A stretch of DNA of 64,000 nucleotides. It comes from Neelides folsomi. Taxonomy: Eukaryota > Arthropoda > Collembola > Neelipleona > Neelidae. The translations under genes and the position numbers were made by a program. The notes below the pieces were generated by a model. That model did no database searches and had not been told where the DNA came from. It worked only from the letters and a program-made list of their open reading frames with translations. Shown here in pieces: positions 20,001 to 60,375 of this stretch. The stretch is from positions 23,068 to 87,067 of the forward strand of contig JAQGBZ010000271.1 in NCBI GenBank assembly GCA_034687125.1, written 5' to 3'. The number at the start of each line of letters is the position of its first letter. Position 1 is the first letter of the stretch.

Positions 20001-23000
20001 TGGAAGTGGGGACGACGGAGAATTTAAAAAGAACGGGAATAAATGAGAATTTCTCATGATTAGAAGGTGATGTGAGGAAAGGAAAGGTTTTGGGCGTAAT
20101 ATGCGATAAGAACTTTTATAACTCCCATCCTCAAGAGAAGAGGAAATTATGAATGGAGATTGTGAGAAAAGTTTTACAAATAGGCAATGAGGAGGAATAA
20201 CTGGAGGGTTTAGGAAACTCAAAATAAGGAAGGTGTTTGACTTTCGAAGCTATCGGACTTTTTATCACTTTTAGTTAAAGAGTATAAGTCCTTTACTTAC
20301 CAAATAATTCACTCATGTAAATTAGCTATGCCTGGTTATTCTAACTCAAATGAGGAATACAAATACGTGTATTTATATTTTATTAAAAGCTAAATTATTT
20401 GGTTTTCACATGCAGCAAGTTGAAGTCGCCAATGTGCTTTTATGTAGAGTACTTAGGGTACAAATGTATGGATATGGATGGATCCATATCCATGCTGAAA
20501 CGATGCTGAAACGGAAGAAAGAGATTGGGAGTATTAGTAATTTATATTTTATTCAAAGAATATAGTTATTTTGAAAATAAGAGTTTTAAAAGCTTTTGTC
20601 GAACTTAACGACTCTCCCTGTCTCGTCGTTTAATTCATGGGCCATTGTTGGCTCCCTTTGAGATTGACAACATGGAATAATAAAAAAGGTTTGAAAGCGA
20701 AAGGAAAAGGAAGTTGAAGGTTTGAATAATCCTAAGTTATGAATTTTTTGTCCCTTACCATTTTACCTTGAGAATCTCTTTTGGCTCTCTTGAAAGTGCC
20801 TTTACATAATACTATTTGTTCTCTGTGTAACACGTGTATGTTTTACCAAATCGAAAATTACATTGCAGTTTCTGCATATTTAATGTGGTGCTTGGGTTTA
20901 AACCATTATTACTGCATTTTCAACTCTTTTGCCTGCGTGTGTATGTGTATTAAAATGGTATTAAGTTGTTTGTGAACATAATGGTGGTGATGACGCTATA
21001 TAGATTGTGAATGACGATGTTTACTTGCACGTAATGTAAAGTTTATACTTGTCAGCGAGCAGGGAACGATAAGGTTGCTGAGTCAGTGAATGAGCGTGGG
21101 GGTGTTCGACTAATTGTTTTCAAAGTTATTTGAGCTGATGAGTAATTCACTATTTGGGAGCGGAATCCTTGATCAAGTATTGTATTTCCAGGTGGCAGAG
21201 ACCACAGTTGATGAGGCAGTGAGGGCGGACGGACGGCACGTGCGAGTTGAAGAAGAACCGCTCCTTGGCCTAGCCTTCCTTCTCCCTGAAGACGGATATT
21301 CTTGTGACCTCGTTCGAGGAGTACCTTCAGGTCTTGTTGAATTTCTTGCCCCATTGGCAACTCTTTGTCGACTAACACCGAACCCTTCTGCTGCTGGATA
21401 TTGGACGATCTTCTTCCAAGACCCAATGAGGTCACCAAGTGCCATGAGTTCGCGTTCCTTCGCTCCCTATCCACTCAATGCGAGTGGGATGTCTGGGGGA
21501 TTTGGCGGGAGTCAGCAAGTTACACCAGCAATGGCTATGGCCAGAGCTTCCTCTGTGGCTGCGGATGTCCCAGAAGTTCAAACAATCAAATTACAGAAAA
21601 TGAGTTCAGGCCTTGGACTCTCAATTGTGGCGGCAAAGGTAAGAGTATTATTTTTCTCATTTTATACATTCTAATAAAGAAGCCTAATCTTAATTAGTGG
21701 AGATACCTAAAGGAAGATTTGGAATATAAAGCCAGGGGATTTCTAGTTGGATATTCTACATACGGAATATCCCGGTTCAGAGTTTGCGATCTACCTATAT
21801 CAATTTATTCACTCCGGTCTCCTTCCTCTTTCCTATTATCCTGTTTACTTCTATGGCCTCTTTATCTCTTCCTTTTGATCGGCTCATTTTGGAAAACGGT
21901 GTCCTATTCTTCCCCAATTAACTTCACGGATTTCAAAGATGATATCTGATATATGGTAATATCTAAAATACCTATTTAACTTGAGGATTATTTCTTAATA
22001 CACTAAACTTTCTATTGACTCTCATTGCACCACTCTCCAACTCTTGTTCATTTCCTTTCGTTTGAGGAAATTTTCATTTGGATAGCCTGTCGAGCATGAA
22101 ATGATAAAAGAAATTAAGAAATTCTTTTTAGAGCCAAGCCTTAATCGGTCGACTCGCCTATTAAGCCCCGTGTGCATCTTTTTTTTTCTATTTCATAATG
22201 CAATAAAAGTGTATTGGAGATGAGTTTTTATACGTTGAATTGGTGAAGTAGGACCTAATGTATGTTTATATGGATGTGGTTTTTGAGCCTCAACTCATTT
22301 GAACTCGTGAAGAGGGTTTTGAGGTGAAGAAAGGGAAGAAGTGAGTTTAAGATTCAAACGACGAAGGACCGGAGAAGGAAATCCGCAAGATCCATAGTTA
22401 TGCACGGCCGAACTACACTCTCCATACATTATTTTGTGGCGGAGGTTTGAAGAGAGAAAGAGAGAGTAATAGACTCGCTTATAAAACCTCGATTCCATGT
22501 ATTTAGATGTATTTATGTGTAAGTACTTTTGATGTCACGAAAATTTAATGTAAGGTAGATATTAGAAGTGATATATGAGTAAAGTATGGAGGTTGGTTGT
22601 GTGTTGTATCGGAAGAAGAAGGATGATGATGCGATGCATTTTTTCTCCTTTCATCCACCTTCTATGTCCTATGCCTAGTTTGAGGTTGAGTATGTCTGGG
22701 TTTGAGGTTTTATCACCTTTTTAAGGGTTCTTCAACTAATGGAAGATATGGAGATGGACTTCCTCCCCTTTATCTCGTTGGAATGGAGAAGGCTCTTAAG
22801 TTAGGGAGATTATTAGGAGACTCAGGTTGTGTAGAAGGGGACTCCGTGAGAATGATGCCTTTCCAAATGATTAAAATGGAACCTCCTTCTAATGGGCCTT
22901 TTTCATTAGAAAGACATTAAGAGTTTCATGAGCTCCGCACACCCCGACAACAAGAGGATTTGGAACGCAGAAGGGAATTTAACTATCTTTCCTTATTGCT

Positions 23001-32287: not shown

Positions 32288-35200
32288 ATCAAGCAGCATT
32301 ATTTAATTTCTTGATCAAAAATATTATTATTTTATATTTACTTAATTATATTGTGTATAGAAAAATTATTATAATACCTGTAGGTCTTATTGAAAATTTA
32401 CTATAATAATTAATTACTATTAGTGTGTACTTACACATCAGATGCCTTCAAGATGTAGAATTGAAAAAAAGCCTTTCCATATATAAATAGCTTATATATA
32501 TTTGAACAAAGTAATAATGAATTTACGAAGGAATGTAGTACCTCAATTGAAATCGGATAGACTTCGTTCGCTAACGATGAATTTTTGACTTGATACATGA
32601 AACGTAAGTACTTTTTAATGAATCCACTGTTGACCAAGACTACTTATTGTATATATTTTAAAAAGTCCCTATAAAGAGAGAACTTTATTCGAATAGTTAG
32701 TATTTAGGAGTGTAATTAGTGTAGTTATTATACATTTTATTGTTTTATGAAATCGTTTGTTCAAGTATGGTAGCTTATTTGGGGACGACCAAATGATAAA
32801 AAATGAATGCAATTCTTTTTTAGAGATTTATTTTATGGCAGATATTTTTCAAGTGTTCCGTCGGCAGTTAATTTTTCACGATTTTCAGATTAATTGTAAC
32901 TATTTTTGCGATCAGTTTAATTTTAAACCCTTGTCGTTCACATGTATGCATTCCATATGGAAGAGACCTCGATAGCAATCATTTAATTATAATTTTATAC
33001 ATTAAAAAATTCAATTACATTTTATCTTTTCCTCAAATCCCTTGCTATGTTTAATAATTTATTATATCTCGAATATTCAATTAGCAATAAATTATTAATT
33101 TTTGTCTACGACATTAATTTGTATTTAATATAGATTAAGGATATTATTATCTAATACCGATTTAGTTATTTAGCCAGTCACTTACTGTATTGCTTTTATA
33201 TAAATCTCTTTCCACCGTCAATTGTTTTATATAACACATTTATTACTTTAGTTTCTTTTTAATTAGTTTTGTATCTGTTGAATTTGATGATTGTAATTTC
33301 ATCAAATTTTTATTTATCAAATTAATAATCAAATAAATAATTATTGAAAATATTTGTCTTTAAAATATTTTGTAAATATTTTTTTCTAAATAAATAAAAT
33401 TTAGCCTTATTAAGAAATGTTTAAGAGAATCGAATGAAACTGAATATGAAATTATCATAGTTAACGATCAATTTGATGAACAAACGATTTACTAAATATA
33501 TTATAAAACTATATTTAAACTCAATACTAAATAATTTTTATGAGAGATGAAATAAATGAATTTTAAGAAATGTTTATAAATCCTCCTTTATTTCGACTTT
33601 TAACCCATTGGATTTTGAACTCTCGACTCGAACAGTACTCTGGACATTTAATCCAATCGAACGCAATTAACTACCATCATATCACGCAACATAATATTAT
33701 TTTTAGTATGTTAACAATAAACGAATGCATGCATTAATTAAACATCTTAAATACGAATACTAAATAGCATACTTAATACTATTAAATATTTAAAATTATT
33801 AAATCCACCGAATCATTGAATTACCAACAATATTGTATACCTATATGTATATGTTATGTACAGTATGAACCATTTGTCCATCTCTTTAGGGTTTATAATA
33901 AAAGTTTGATTTGCTAAATGAGTCTGTGTGAATTCTATCAAAGTAATACTAAAGACGAATACGATTTTAAGCCCTCAGAGAAATTTCCTTAAAGATGGGG
34001 GAAATATACGAATCTTCCCTTTGGAGTGCTGATTTAACTCAAAATCTGTTGATCTTTTGACACTACTTTGACGCCATATAAAAAATTATAAAAAAATCTA
34101 CTGATTTTCAGGTCTGAAATAGCTACAAAAAGGAACGATACATTAGATTATAAGTAGCTTGATTTAGTTTGTTATAATGTGTGTGGGTAAGCCGCAACAA
34201 ATTCGGACCGACTTACCGATCATGCTGTATGTATGTATGTTATGTAGATAAATCTATTATCGTATTATTATAGTGTATGTTAAACTTGGGTTAAAAACAT
34301 TTATTTGATAATACATATTGATATATCTTAAGGAGGATTAAGTCTTAAAGGTTAACGCAAGCTAATGAATCTGATTAAATGCTAACATAAATAATACCTC
34401 GTTCATGAGCTCAAAATTATTCTACCCAGACAATTGAAGCCGAGGAAGTTAATTCTTACATTTAATAAAATACAATTTTATATCTATTAAATACTATAGT
34501 TTACTCTCTATACGTCTACTACATGCATATGTCTATTACATACCACACATGTACATAAATATAATTTAATAACTAACACATAAATATAATAGCATTAACT
34601 TTAATATGTATGTTACAGTAAAACAGTCTAAACAAATCTATTAAATAATTTTTATAGCTTATTAAAAGCTGTAAATGTACTTAAATATAAATGAGATTCT
34701 TTTTATCTGTATCACATTATTTAATACATTACAATACAATATTTTTAAAAATTTAAGACATATCGGGTTACAATTAAACCATTATAAACACATTCATATC
34801 ATAGATCATACATGAATGATAATTGATAATTATACTTATACTTATTTGGGATATTTGACTTCATAAGGTAAACAAAAATAGTCTTGTCTGAGGACTTTCA
34901 CATCAACACGAGGTAATGACTCCAGCAATTATTTCCGACTACGTAATATTATTAATTGCACTCAAGCACTAGTAAATGTATGTAATTGTACTGTATGTTC
35001 CATTAGTATTAATTCTAATTATGCATACGTAGCTTTTCTCATGTTTTATCTCAAGAGGAAATATCAACAATAATTACTGTGTAACGTCCCAGTACAAAAG
35101 TAATATGCGGATAAAATTAACGCTCATAAAGTCATCAATTGGTAGGTTTTGTTTCTCTTTGTGATAAGGTTCTAAAAGGATATTAAAGTTCATTCCAAAT

Positions 35201-41500: not shown

Positions 41501-44500
41501 GTTTGGATACACAATTGAAACAATACAGTTACTCATGCTCCCTATGGTCACATCCATGTAAGAGCCGATTATATTTAATTGTAATATTTTAATTGTTCTC
41601 AATTTAGTTAATAATGATAGAAGTTTTATTGATGTCTTGTTGGTTATTAATGCTTTTGTTTTGTAATATGAAATCCTTGATATAAAAATTGATGGAAAAT
41701 TGATTGATTATTAAAAGGAAAGAAGCGTTGGGCTCAATGGGAAACGACGCACCTCTTGCATGTCTGTCACTTTTCCAACCACTTCCTTATGAATATTTCA
41801 AGCAGCTCTTTGCTCAAGTAAGTCTTTTATTAAGTGAGAATCTCCGAAAATGTTGTAATTTAACACTTTGAATTGACAGGTGACGAATCCTCCGATTGAT
41901 CCTTTTCGTGAGAGGATTGTCATGTCGCTCGCATGTCCCGTAGGACCAGAAGCCAACATTTTGGAACCAAGTTCTGAACAATGTCACCGACTTTTCATTC
42001 CTCATCCAATCCTTTCTATTTGGGATCTCGAAGTTCTCAAAGCTACCCGTCATCGAGGCTGGAGGGTAAAGTCGCATATATAAATTCCCGTGTTATTTAT
42101 TACAATTATTTAATTTGGTGTTAATAATCTTAATAATATGAGCATGATTTAACTTTAGACAAAAGTTATTGACATTACATATGAGAAAAGCGAAGGGCCA
42201 GGTGGATTATCCGAAGGACTCAACAGAGTTTGCAAAGAATCTTGTCATGCTGCTGAAAATGATTACGAAATGATTATTCTATCTGATAGAGCTGCTGGAA
42301 AAAGAAGGTTGGCAAAATCACTTTTAACACCAAATACAATTTTGTATTAAAAATATAATATTTTAAAATTTCACATTTAATTTAATTCTTTTTTTCGCTA
42401 ATTACATTTATTACATAATTATCGTGTTTATATGTTACGTATCTAATAAATATTTCAGAGTCCCAATGAGTGCTCTTTTGGCTCTTGGTGCCGTTCATCA
42501 CCATTTGATTGAAGAGCGACAAAGAATGAAAGTCGGACTTATTCTCGAGACAGGAGAAGCGAGAGAAGTTCATCACATGTGTGTTCTTCTTGGTTATGGA
42601 GCTGATGGAGTTTGTCCTTATTTGGTATTTGAAACTGCCCGATCACTCCGATCCGAAGGAATCATCGATGCTTCTATCAACGACAAGCAAATATTTGAGG
42701 TTTTTGCTCTTTTTTACCCAAGCTTATAAGATTTTAAACCTTATCTCAATTTTCCCTTTCCAAATCTTATTAGAATTACTCTGGATCAATGGAGCGAGGG
42801 ATTGCGAAAGTGATGGCTAAAATGGGAATCTCAACGCTCCAGTCGTACAAAGGAGCTCAAATCTTCGAAGCCGTTGGTCTTGCCGACGAAGTCATAAATA
42901 AATGCTTTAAAGGAACTGAGTCCAGAATTGGTGGAGTGACATTTAAAGTGTTGGCCGAAGAAGCTTTCGAACGTCACGCTCTCACTTACCAAGATCGCGA
43001 GTGTGACAATTTAGTCCTCAGAAATCCCGGAATCTATCATTGGCGACAAGGAGGAGAAAAACACATCAATGATCCAGTGAGCATTGCCAATCTTCAGGAA
43101 GCAGTGAAGAATAAGAGCAAAAGTGCTTATGAGAAATTTGTCGAGTCGGGTCATGAGAGCGTGAGGGATTGCGCATTGAGAGGTCAACTCGATTTGGTTT
43201 TGTCGGATGGAGGACCCTTGGATTTGTCGTCTGTTGAACCTGCAGCAGAAATTGTCAAACGGTTCGCGACCGGTGCTATGAGTTTTGGCTCCATTTCCAT
43301 TGAAGCTCATACAACACTTGCAATTGCAATGAATCGAATTGGAGGAAAGTCAAATACTGGAGAAGGAGGTAATTTTTTAATTACTTTTTAATATCAATGG
43401 CCAATGTAATCTAATAATTATTTTAGAATATTTGAACTTTACTAATTAATTATTTGTATTTGTTTGACTTAAAGGTGAAAATCCTGATCGTTACTTGGAC
43501 CAAGATCCAATGTTCAATAAACGGTCCGCGATTAAGCAAGTTGCTTCAGGTCGCTTTGGGGTCACTATTGCCTATTTAGCCAACGCGGATGATTTACAAA
43601 TCAAAATGGCCCAAGGAGCAAAACCCGGAGAAGGCGGCGAACTTCCAGCCCACAAAGTATCCAAAGATATCGCAGCAACGAGACATTCAGTTGCTGGCGT
43701 TGGTCTAATCTCACCCCCGCCTCATCATGACATTTATTCAATTGAAGATTTGGCTGAGCTCATTTATGATCTCAAATGTGCAAATCCAAATGCGAGGATT
43801 TCAGTGAAACTCGTGTCTGAAGTTGGAGTTGGAACTATTGCTGCTGGTGTTGCAAAAGTAAATGATTACCTACTCCAAAACCATGAAACCTGTACCAAAC
43901 TAAGAATTTACAAATCTTAAATATGCTTCTAATATATTATAATTATAATTTATTAAACAGGGTAAAGCAGAACACATTGTAATTTCTGGACATGATGGAG
44001 GAACCGGGGCAAGTTCATGGACAGGAATCAAAGCCGCAGGTCTTCCTTGGGAGCTCGGAATATCCGAAACTCATCAAACCCTCGTTTTGAACAATTTGCG
44101 AAGCCGAGTTGTTCTTCAAGCAGATGGACAAATCCGTACGGGTTTTGATGTCATTGTTGCTGCTGCGCTTGGTGCTGATGAATTCGGTTTCTCAACTGCT
44201 CCTTTAATTGCGATGGGTTGCACCATGATGAGGAAATGCCATTTGAACACCTGTCCCGTGGGGATTGCAACGCAGGATCCGGTTCTAAGAAAGAAGTTTG
44301 AAGGAAAGCCAGAATACGTTGTAAATTATCTTTTCATGCTCGCTGAGGAAGTTCGGGACATGATGGCTAAAATGGGGATTAAAAGATTCCAAGATCTCGT
44401 TGGTCGCACAGATCTGTTGAAAGTGAAGGACACGAGTCATCCCAAAGGGAAATACTTGAATTTTGGTGGTCTTCTTAAAAACGCTCTTTACATGCGACCT

Positions 44501-57927: not shown

Positions 57928-60375
57928 TCATTCTGCGACTTGTTTATTCTTTTTATTTTTCTTCTTCTTCCTTGGTGGTTCTTCTACAGCTTGTTCAACT
58001 TCTTGTTCTACTGTAGCATCTTCTTCCATCTCCGATAACTTCCTCTTCTTTTTCTTTTTCTTCTTCTTCTCCCCATCTTGAGATTGGTCGAGGAAGGAAG
58101 CTGAAAGAATATTGGATTCATTGATGGCCTCGGCCATAACATCCACGTTCTTTCGAGGAAGGTCGCCGCTCTCATAAAACTTAAGTCGCTCCTCCACTTG
58201 TTCCCGAAGTTTACCACCATAAACACTATTGGGGAATTCTTTAAAAATAAAATAAAATCATGATTAAATCATTATTCAAATCAATTAAGTCATTATAATT
58301 AATTATTTTTTGATCAGATATATAATAGGTATTTTTCTCAGCATGAACATAAGCGTGGTGCATGAACCGTTCATCATGAATTTATAAATAAAATAATTTA
58401 ATAGTTTAAAAAAATACCCGTGAAACAATCAATCCTTGAGGCGATTGTGCATTTGTTTGCTAAAAATCTGGAAATTCTTCCTTTATTTGCTGCGCCAGCT
58501 CGACCTTAAAATTGTTATATTTTAAAATTAATAACTCACATTCACTACAAAATTTCATTAAAATCCCAATAAAGTGGACAAATAAATACCGATAAATGTT
58601 GAATGAAATAGGAGTCCATATTTCGGTGTTTTTCCTCTAGTCTTAAGAGCTCTAAAGAGGGCTTTCTCTGCACCGAGAATTTGAACTGTTGAAGCTGGGA
58701 ATTTTGCCAAATTGGTGAGTGAGCCGGCGTGTGATATCAGACGAGCGGCTACGGACTCTCCAAGTAAGGATGTTAAGTTAGGAGCGACGGAAGCCATTTT
58801 TGATTGAAGATATTTTAGTAGAGATCTTAAATCGAAATTAAAATATTTAGTTAAGGGACAATAAAAGTAATAAATCAAGTTAAATTTTTAAAATAAGGAA
58901 ATGTTTCTTGTTTATTATGAGCAAATCAAAAGAATTGAACTACTCCCCATAAACGAGAATTAATCTGGGCCTGTGGAAAGATCTACAAGAGATTTAATAC
59001 TGCTTGTAAATGGCAAATAGGCCCCAATATAAAAAAAGTGCATTAGTGTATAGATAATAAACTCAAAATTATTATTGCTAAAACTTACTTTCGATATTCG
59101 GCTAGTTGAATAACCCGTTTAGCGAAGCTTTCAATATTAATAAGATCAATTGGTGAAATGTCCATCCCCATTGATGAATTCGAAGCAACAAGAATTGCCT
59201 GTGCTTTAGCAGAATCCCCTATCATTTCTCCAAGTACTTCCAATTTGCTTTCATCCAACTCTTTTCTGTTCTTGATGTAATGAACGACCTTGGCGTAGAG
59301 GTAATTGTCGCTCACAATTTTAATGAGCTCTGGGAAATGGTATGAGTACCATTCACGAATCCTCATAGAGAAAGTGTTTACATCTTTGTCAAGTTGGTCA
59401 AGTAGGGCGATGCTTTGAATTATCATGTTGTCGGAACGATTAACATTAAACTTTACTTTAGACCTCGAATAAGCATGACCGAGACCCAGTTGGGATTTGC
59501 CACCTGAAATTAAAGAATGTAAATTGTAACTTGATATTTTATAAAATTTTGAAAGAAATTGTATTTTTTATATAAATAAGCGTCAGATTAGGTAAGGGAT
59601 TTTGTCATCAATAAATTCAGACCAAGATGATTCATCATTTGCATGAAGGTAAAACTGAATTATTTAAATTTTATAACAGATTAAAATATATACCAGCTTC
59701 ATTTGTAAGGCCTTTGACCATCTTGTAAAAATGAGTTCGGACGCCTCTACATATCTCTTGTACGAGAGCTCCGACACGGATCTTAATTTTAGGAAAGGCT
59801 TCGCTAATGGCGGCTCCGAGTTTTGGCTCTGCAATGCCCAAGGTCATCTTCTTAACAGCAAATTCAGAAATGAAGAATTTAAGGTCATCGGGAAGGACGC
59901 CTTCGGTGATGGAATTCAAATTTTCCAATGCGGCTTGTGCCGTCTTGAATGGGCTGAATGCAACCAATTGAGCAACTGCTGTAAATCTCGAATAATCGCT
60001 TATACAAGATTCCACCTAAAACAGTTAAAAACGCACAATTATAATTTTGATTCAAAAAATTTGATTTAAAAAATAATTTAATTTTTTCGAAAATCAGATT
60101 TTAAAGGTATTTTTCTCAGCATCGACATAAGCGTGGTGCATGAACCGTTCATCATTAATTCATTAATCGTAATAAACATTCTTAGGCAAGTAATTTATAA
60201 AATTAGAGCCCAAATGTAGTATAAAATTAAAAGTTAATGCATGATCATATAAAAGAAAATGGAGTAAACTTGCCTCTGAAAGGAACATGCTCTCCTCCTC
60301 GAACTCTTTGATTTTAAATGCCGCAAATCCTGCTGCATGTTCGAACAGCAGGTGTAGCTTTGATTCCCCTGCCAT
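57928..60375 (-). CDS. Nop56: NOP56, core protein of box C/D snoRNPs
   Basis: Six exons on the minus strand: 60274-60375, 59694-60015, 59089-59503, 58590-58825, 58418-58504, 57928-58238. The phases join, 1473 nt, 490 aa, close to the insect protein. NOP56 is one of four core proteins (with NOP58, fibrillarin and SNU13) of particles that 2'-O-methylate rRNA in the nucleolus. The N-terminal domain ([19 protein letters not shown]) binds fibrillarin; the middle NOSIC/coiled-coil region includes [20 protein letters not shown]; the Nop domain (about 250-400) has [16 protein letters not shown] and [20 protein letters not shown]; the C-terminus is a Lys-rich tail ([22 protein letters not shown]). The residues 142-280 match human NOP56 rather than NOP58. 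Intron 1 is GC-AG, and introns 1, 2, 3 and 5 each contain a candidate snoRNA; intron 4 (85 nt) is too short for one. Confidence 0.96.
58309..58382 (-). ncRNA. Box C/D snoRNA in NOP56 intron 5 (SNORD32/snR40-like 18S guide), copy 1
   Basis: Read on the minus strand: C box ATGATGA (58371-58377), guide CATGCACCACG, D'-like CTTA, C'-like ATGCTGA, second spacer, D box CTGA (58314-58317). CATGCACCAC pairs perfectly with 18S rRNA GUGGUGCAUG, which is conserved in all eukaryotes. Pairing continues 5' with GAACGG after one bulged T. The nucleotide five upstream of D' pairs with the G that human SNORD32A (Gm1328) and yeast snR40 modify, from memory. The D box is 75 nt from the 3' splice site. A near-identical copy lies in intron 1. 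The second spacer differs between the copies, so only the first guide appears constrained. A clear terminal stem is not visible. Confidence 0.78.
58899..59025 (-). ncRNA. Candidate H/ACA snoRNA in NOP56 intron 3
   Basis: Read on the minus strand, about 127 nt. Hairpin 1 (59025-58967) has a lower stem GGGCCT/AGGCCC, an open pocket, and an upper stem TACAAG/CTTGTA. It is followed at once by AGATTA (58961-58966), matching the H box ANANNA. Hairpin 2 has a lower stem TTCT-c-GTTTAT/ATAAAC-a-AGAA and an 11-position upper stem (GAGTAGTTCAA/TTGATTTGCTC) with one mismatch. Directly after its stem comes ACA (58902-58904), three bases from the predicted 3' end. This is the full hairpin-H-hairpin-ACA layout of a pseudouridylation guide. 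The pocket of hairpin 2 as drawn is small, and I cannot name an rRNA target. Confidence 0.7.
59578..59643 (-). ncRNA. Box C/D snoRNA in NOP56 intron 2
   Basis: Read on the minus strand: C box ATGATGA (59632-59638), guide ATCATCTTGGT, D' box CTGA (59617-59620), five bases, C' box TTGATGA (59605-59611), guide ending CCCTTACCTAAT, D box CTGA (59583-59586). All four boxes are present with normal spacing (11 and 18 nt guides). The D box lies 79 nt from the 3' splice site. By the D+5 rule the predicted targets are an A in ACCAAGATGAT and a G in ATTAGGTAAGGG; I cannot assign these to rRNA from memory. The terminal stem is weak. Confidence 0.76.
60089..60160 (-). ncRNA. Box C/D snoRNA in NOP56 intron 1 (SNORD32/snR40-like 18S guide), copy 2
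   Basis: Same organisation as the intron 5 copy: C box ATGATGA (60149-60155), identical guide CATGCACCACG, D'-like CTTA, C'-like ATGCTGA, D box CTGA (60094-60097). The two copies share about 50 bases with only a few differences, then diverge in the second spacer, while both keep a CTGA at nearly the same place (C-to-D span 62 here, 64 in copy 1). The D box is 78 nt from the 3' splice site. The host intron uses a GC donor. Confidence 0.78.
60268..60273 (-). other. GC-type 5' splice site (GC-AG intron 1 of NOP56)
   Basis: On the minus strand exon 1 ends ...TTTCAGAG and the intron begins GCAAGT (60273 to 60268), ending TTTTAG at 60016. The NOP5N domain joins as MFLSE then [11 protein letters not shown], matching the human protein across the junction. 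Same AG|GCAAGT context as the GC donor in glutamate synthase. Confidence 0.82.

Follow-up and report, generated by a model that had tools for sequence, protein, structure and literature searches.

The NOP56 gene contained in the window (the whole 64-kb stretch of DNA analysed) is very probably an ordinary host gene for snoRNAs. In the mechanism that we propose, the NOP56 pre-mRNA would be spliced and its introns debranched, after which trimming around the assembled snoRNPs would free three C/D RNAs and an H/ACA RNA from four introns. The C/D RNA that occurs in two copies would direct 2'-O-methylation of 18S rRNA at the equivalent of yeast G1271, the C/D RNA of intron 2 probably directs methylation in the 28S segment TAGGTAAGGGA, and the H/ACA RNA would direct the formation of a pseudouridine. 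Expression of the RNAs, their processing, their assembly into snoRNPs and the rRNA modifications are thereby predicted from features that can be read in the DNA.

The NOP56 gene and its intronic elements

The NOP56 coding sequence lies on the minus strand (60375-57928) and consists of six exons with consensus splice sites that encode 490 amino acids with no internal stop. The product contains the Pfam domains Nop (2.7e-86) and NOP5NT (2e-18), and its top match among PDB sequences is 'Nucleolar protein 56' with 622 bits, compared with 306 bits for the top NOP58 entry. The identity of the host proposed in the sequence-only reading is thus borne out. That reading had further placed guide RNAs on the coding strand of introns 1, 2, 3 and 5, and a snoRNA-like element is indeed present in each of these four introns, sense to NOP56 in every case. 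Introns 1, 2 and 5 harbor C/D elements with exact boxes, and intron 3 harbors an element with the fold of an H/ACA RNA. The 85-nt intron 4 is the only empty one, as had been stated, with no snoRNA-like element detected either by the exact-box C/D scan or by the hinge/ACA scan. The coordinates of all features are collected in Table 1.

Table 1. Gene structure of NOP56, intronic snoRNA-like elements and the second H/ACA copy. Positions refer to the window, except for the last row.
Feature	Position	Strand	Details
NOP56 exons	60375-60274, 60015-59694, 59503-59089, 58825-58590, 58504-58418, 58238-57928	-	
Intron 1	60016..60273	-	258 nt, GC-AG, phase 0
Intron 2	59504..59693	-	190 nt
Intron 3	58826..59088	-	263 nt
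Intron 4	58505..58589	-	85 nt
Intron 5	58239..58417	-	179 nt
C/D candidate, copy B (intron 1)	60090..60163	-	C ATGATGA 60155-60149; D' CTTA 60131-60128; D CTGA 60097-60094
D' guide of copy B	60143-60133	-	TCATGCACCAC
C/D candidate, copy A (intron 5)	58310..58388	-	C 58377-58371; D' CTTA 58353-58350; D 58317-58314
D' guide of copy A	58365-58355	-	TCATGCACCAC
C/D candidate C (intron 2)	59580..59643	-	C 59638-59632; D' CTGA 59620-59617; D 59586-59583
D guide of candidate C	59599-59589	-	TCCCTTACCTA
Box H/ACA candidate (intron 3)	58899..59026	-	128 nt; H box AGATTA 58966-58961; ACA 58904-58902
Second H/ACA copy	L002 1514-1641 (G000:C146)	-	sense, in a 330-nt intron (1755-1426) of a TSC22-domain gene

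In all three C/D candidates an exact C box (RUGAUGA) lies towards the 5' end and an exact D box (CUGA) towards the 3' end, and each has, ahead of D or D', a guide of roughly 10 nt that pairs with foreign rRNA over 11 bp. Both strands of the 64 kb were scanned for exact C boxes with a CUGA 42-99 nt downstream; this returned 10 pairs, two of which share a C box, where shuffling (10 shuffles) leads one to expect 3.7 per strand. Three of the 10 pairs fall within the NOP56 introns, all of them sense, while about 0.06 would be expected in these 975 nt.

The terminal stem is poorly developed in these elements. The best contiguous runs comprise two pairs in intron 5, two in intron 2 and one in intron 1, so that a stem of at least three contiguous pairs is formed by none of the three candidates; two other places in the window have one. 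Intronic C/D RNAs can manage without a terminal stem by means of an external stem, and the missing stem therefore lowers the case for C/D membership without excluding it; the three candidates were retained because of their other features. Elsewhere in the window, C/D-like pairs with a terminal stem of 4-5 bp were noted at 20987-21081 (+) and 42455-42501 (-), about the number that shuffled sequence yields.

In the comparison of the introns with Rfam, copies A and B are closest to a known family of C/D RNAs (RF00300), but the gathering score was reached by none of the four NOP56 elements, nor by any other stretch of the window. A match to snoTBR6 below threshold (28.1 bits, gathering 37.6, E 1.3) was recorded at window positions 34027-34106 (+).

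The elements are positioned uniformly with respect to the 3' splice site. The distance from the end of the element (box D or the H/ACA end) to the splice site is 78, 79, 73 and 75 nt in introns 1, 2, 3 and 5, respectively, and the probability of a spread of at most 6 nt under random placement is 0.00066. In vertebrates, according to the passages cited, the spacing between a C/D RNA and the 3' splice site or branch point downstream of it is conserved, unlike that of H/ACA RNAs (PMC8162545). The C/D distances in NOP56 fit this placement; because the vertebrate rule as described there applies to C/D and not to H/ACA RNAs, the agreement of the H/ACA element is a little unusual. In the TSC22-domain gene, 88 nt separate the end of the second H/ACA copy from the splice site.

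The C/D RNAs and their candidate targets

The claim that one RNA is duplicated inside the gene stands. The elements of introns 1 and 5 align by BLAST with 97.8 bits and 85% identity over 98 nt, and a search of the genome with the intron 5 copy returned matches at introns 1 and 5 only. The D' guide TCATGCACCAC, the C box and the D box are identical in the two copies, whereas the D-side spacers differ. Both copies have a degenerate D' box (CTTA) and, by eye, a C'-like ATGCTGA with one mismatch.

In Rfam, copy A resembles RF00300 (snoZ221/snoR21b) with 34.4 bits, below the gathering score of 44 (E 0.00013 in 5.5 kb), and in the scan of the window it has the lowest E value (0.0015) of the four matches with E up to 3. 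Copy B reaches 25.2 bits with the same family, also below the gathering score of 44; with a window-wide E of 0.54 it is on its own not separated from noise, as MIR319 appears at E 0.71 and another unrelated match at 1.3. A weaker similarity of copy A is to snoMe18S-Gm1358 (RF00533; 22.9 bits, gathering 50, E 0.81). Both families, RF00300 being of plant and RF00533 of fly origin, share with copies A and B the D' guide core CAUGCACCAC and the candidate 18S site G1271 (yeast numbering).

The 18S and 28S rRNA of the species were not found in the assembly (G000, 75.1 Mb), using an 18S pattern and DNA search and a 28S pattern (the DNA search was run without a positive control), and its rDNA may be unassembled. 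Guide targets were therefore examined on foreign rRNA. A 5.8S pattern run against prokaryote assemblies gave four contigs (L006-L009), and 28S patterns gave none in viral contigs. L009 contains a full 1800-nt 18S, presumably that of a yeast, and served as a reference, although its 28S is largely masked; L007, with part of 18S and 28S, served as the other reference, and L006 and L008 were left out for 18S and 28S.

The D' guide TCATGCACCAC pairs with 18S over 11 bp with one G-U. Counting back from D', taken to be CTTA, the fifth base lies opposite G1271 in yeast numbering. Because 7 of 300 shuffled guides pair as well somewhere in the same 18S, the weight for this target rests on the exact site together with the Rfam match. 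G1271 is a classical methylation site that is served by snR40 in yeast and SNORD32A in human and corresponds to Gm1358 in the fly. Copies A and B are thus candidate guides for 2'-O-methylation at the equivalent of this position. The host of the human relative is a ribosomal protein gene, whereas the host here is NOP56. The D-side guide of copy B has no notable target, as 169/300 shuffles are as good in 18S and 192/300 in the partial 28S. That of copy A shows a 12-pair match in the partial 28S of L007 (17/300 shuffles as good), which is absent from copy B.

All three boxes of the intron 2 element (C, D' and D) are exact and fall within 56 nt, and by eye the element has a C'-like TTGATGA with one mismatch. 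Eleven Watson-Crick pairs can form between its D guide TCCCTTACCTA and the conserved 28S segment TAGGTAAGGGA, in a pairing that leaves the two guide bases adjoining box D unpaired; among 3000 shuffled guides, 22 form 11 or more such pairs when set against 3733 nt of other rRNA. The target segment was recognised before it was found in print, and is known from printed primers, namely for mouse (PMC8789897) and human cells (PMC6294500), the organism in both being our reading of title and context, and for C. elegans (PMC10085788). It is absent from the rRNA contigs that were fetched. In the reference rRNA, TCCCTTACCTA has no good target (228/300 shuffles as good in 18S, 252/300 in the partial 28S), and the same applies to the D' guide (147/300 and 193/300, respectively). 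We conclude that methylation within 28S TAGGTAAGGGA is the probable function of the intron 2 RNA, and that this RNA is the least secure of the four elements.

It is doubtful, though worth weighing, that the intron 2 candidate arose by chance as a C/D pair in an AT-rich intron, leaving the duplicated C/D RNA and the H/ACA RNA as the sole genuine elements. Such pairs do arise in shuffled sequence (3.7 per strand per 64 kb), the genome search found no second copy of this element, its Rfam matches are at chance level (SNORD57 with 20.3 bits, gathering 47, E 1.4), and the reference rRNA offers no good target. Against this stand the three exact boxes inside 56 nt, a D box placed 79 nt before the 3' splice site as in the other introns, and the 11-bp Watson-Crick match to the 28S segment known from the human, mouse and C. 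elegans primers. As a homologue of SNORD57 the element was rejected on account of the chance-level score and of a guide before box D that differs in the printed alignment.

The box H/ACA RNA and its second copy

The element of intron 3 folds into a hairpin, an AGATTA hinge that follows the ANANNA consensus, a second hairpin, and an ACA three nt from the 3' end. Its minimum free energy is -38.6 kcal/mol (z -4.77), which 0 of 200 shuffles equalled. A hinge/ACA scan of both strands of the window yielded seven passes of the energy cut in 1862 tests, and the intron 3 RNA is the sole one of the seven with a single hairpin in both arms. A stretch at window positions 21462-21598 (+) has an H/ACA-like arrangement of hairpin, hinge, hairpin and ACA by energy, but with extra loops.

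The two H/ACA copies, in NOP56 intron 3 and in the TSC22-domain gene, share 125 of 128 positions, with similarity ending at the ends of the RNA. Two of the three differences are located in the basal stem and would still allow pairing as G-U; these stem-compatible changes are suggestive but, with two sequences, do not amount to proof of covariation. The copy in the TSC22-domain gene folds less well (z -3.63, 1/200 shuffles as good): the basal stem is shifted in register in the minimum free energy structure and lost in the centroid.

The best pairing of the H/ACA pocket with the reference (18S and part of 28S) was equalled by 84 of 200 shuffles, and the 28S target concerned, GAUC[U]UGGUGGUAG with 13 pairs, was discarded. 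The top Rfam H/ACA match of the intron 3 RNA is TtnuHACA5 with 23.7 bits (gathering 100). Homology to SNORA51 was likewise rejected, there being no match among the Rfam matches up to E 5.

Since two of the three RNA types exist in copies, at least one element could be an unexpressed pseudo-copy, for example one of the C/D copies or one of the H/ACA copies. The lower score of copy B (25.2 against 34.4 bits for copy A) and the poorer fold of the TSC22-gene copy are in line with this, as is the mobility of snoRNAs within genomes, which the passages cited describe as movement between broadly expressed hosts under 'constrained drift' (PMC3511168). We nevertheless regard it as unlikely: neither C/D copy has lost a box or the D' guide, the two H/ACA copies are distinguished by only 3 of 128 positions, with both stem changes still able to pair, and all copies lie sense within introns.

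NOP56 as a probable host gene, and the NOP58 paralogue

Vertebrate NOP56 had been named as a known snoRNA host, which agrees with the cited passages: the human gene (NOL5A) carries five, the C/D RNAs SNORD56, SNORD57, SNORD86 and SNORD110 and the H/ACA RNA SNORA51 (PMC9454646, PMC4159348). A figure legend on host genes also shows zebrafish nop56 with its snoRNA (PMC6954239). Because the human introns already hold both classes, the mixed set that the sequence-only reading had singled out is not new in kind; what differs is the contents. Neither SNORA51 nor SNORD56, 86 or 110 occurs among the Rfam matches up to E 5, and the cited passages on the human gene make no mention of a duplicate pair within it (PMC9454646, PMC4159348). 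Among the excerpts returned by the literature search, no report of an invertebrate NOP56 as a snoRNA host stood out.

SNORD86 is likewise a C/D RNA in a NOP56 intron, an orphan that ties the level of NOP56 protein to NOP56 splicing in human, as described in the passages cited (PMC11028025). An element of the present gene acting mainly in cis in the same manner, its snoRNP form steering NOP56 to a non-coding isoform when the protein is plentiful, would have in its favor the shared host gene, with its known human case, and the rarer GC-AG boundary of intron 1. This is very improbable and, because of the splice-site anatomy, such regulation is not supported: the human switch, as described, uses a second donor that lies 3' of the snoRNA (PMC9892063), whereas no GT was found downstream of the element in intron 5, and none of the 3, 1 and 1 GTs downstream of the elements in introns 1, 2 and 3 has a good donor context by eye. 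In addition, the RNA present in introns 1 and 5 carries a canonical rRNA guide with a conserved candidate target in trans; SNORD86, by contrast, is called an orphan in the passages cited (PMC11028025).

As an ordinary snoRNA host, the gene represents a probable non-vertebrate case of a core snoRNP protein gene that hosts multiple snoRNAs, in a mixed set unlike that of human. In the same genome, COX1 contains 11 internal TGA codons, and the frames that by eye correspond to ND2, COX1, COX2 and ATP6 share one strand, an arrangement resembling that of panarthropods. Because none of the five human snoRNAs was recognised, NOP56 was likely filled with snoRNAs independently of vertebrates; a shared ancestry with the human set, with the similarity lost, is possible. 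It is reasonable to suppose that co-transcription couples the supply of NOP56 protein to that of the C/D RNAs. For the H/ACA RNA, which has other core proteins, this coupling does not hold directly, and a link from protein to splicing through an intronic snoRNA of NOP56 is already known in human from the SNORD86 passages (PMC11028025). That NOP56 is a convergent host with a different mixed set, chosen repeatedly through selection for co-supply and possibly feedback and not by drift alone, is a tentative suggestion to which we assign a low probability. Independent fillings of one host would allow co-regulation to be tested against sufficient expression, the latter being the 'constrained drift' of the passages cited (PMC3511168).

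Fibrillarin and TruB/dyskerin gave no match in family searches of the genome, and the hosting of snoRNAs by snoRNP genes beyond NOP56 was therefore examined for NOP58 only. The NOP58 paralogue (L018, G000:C575), whose best PDB match is 'Nucleolar protein 58' with 584 bits, provides a built-in contrast: none of its seven introns contains an exact C/D pair, and there is none on either strand of the 5-kb locus. An H/ACA scan of the locus gave three weak sense matches in 128 tests over both strands, all three of which overlap exons or the 5' end, with none inside an intron. Intron 6 of NOP58 (172 nt, GC-richer) contains a near-perfect long hairpin of -56.5 kcal/mol on the minus strand (L018 1731-1830). 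This hairpin, which matches sub-threshold miRNA families only in Rfam, may represent either a miRNA precursor or the insertion of an inverted repeat.
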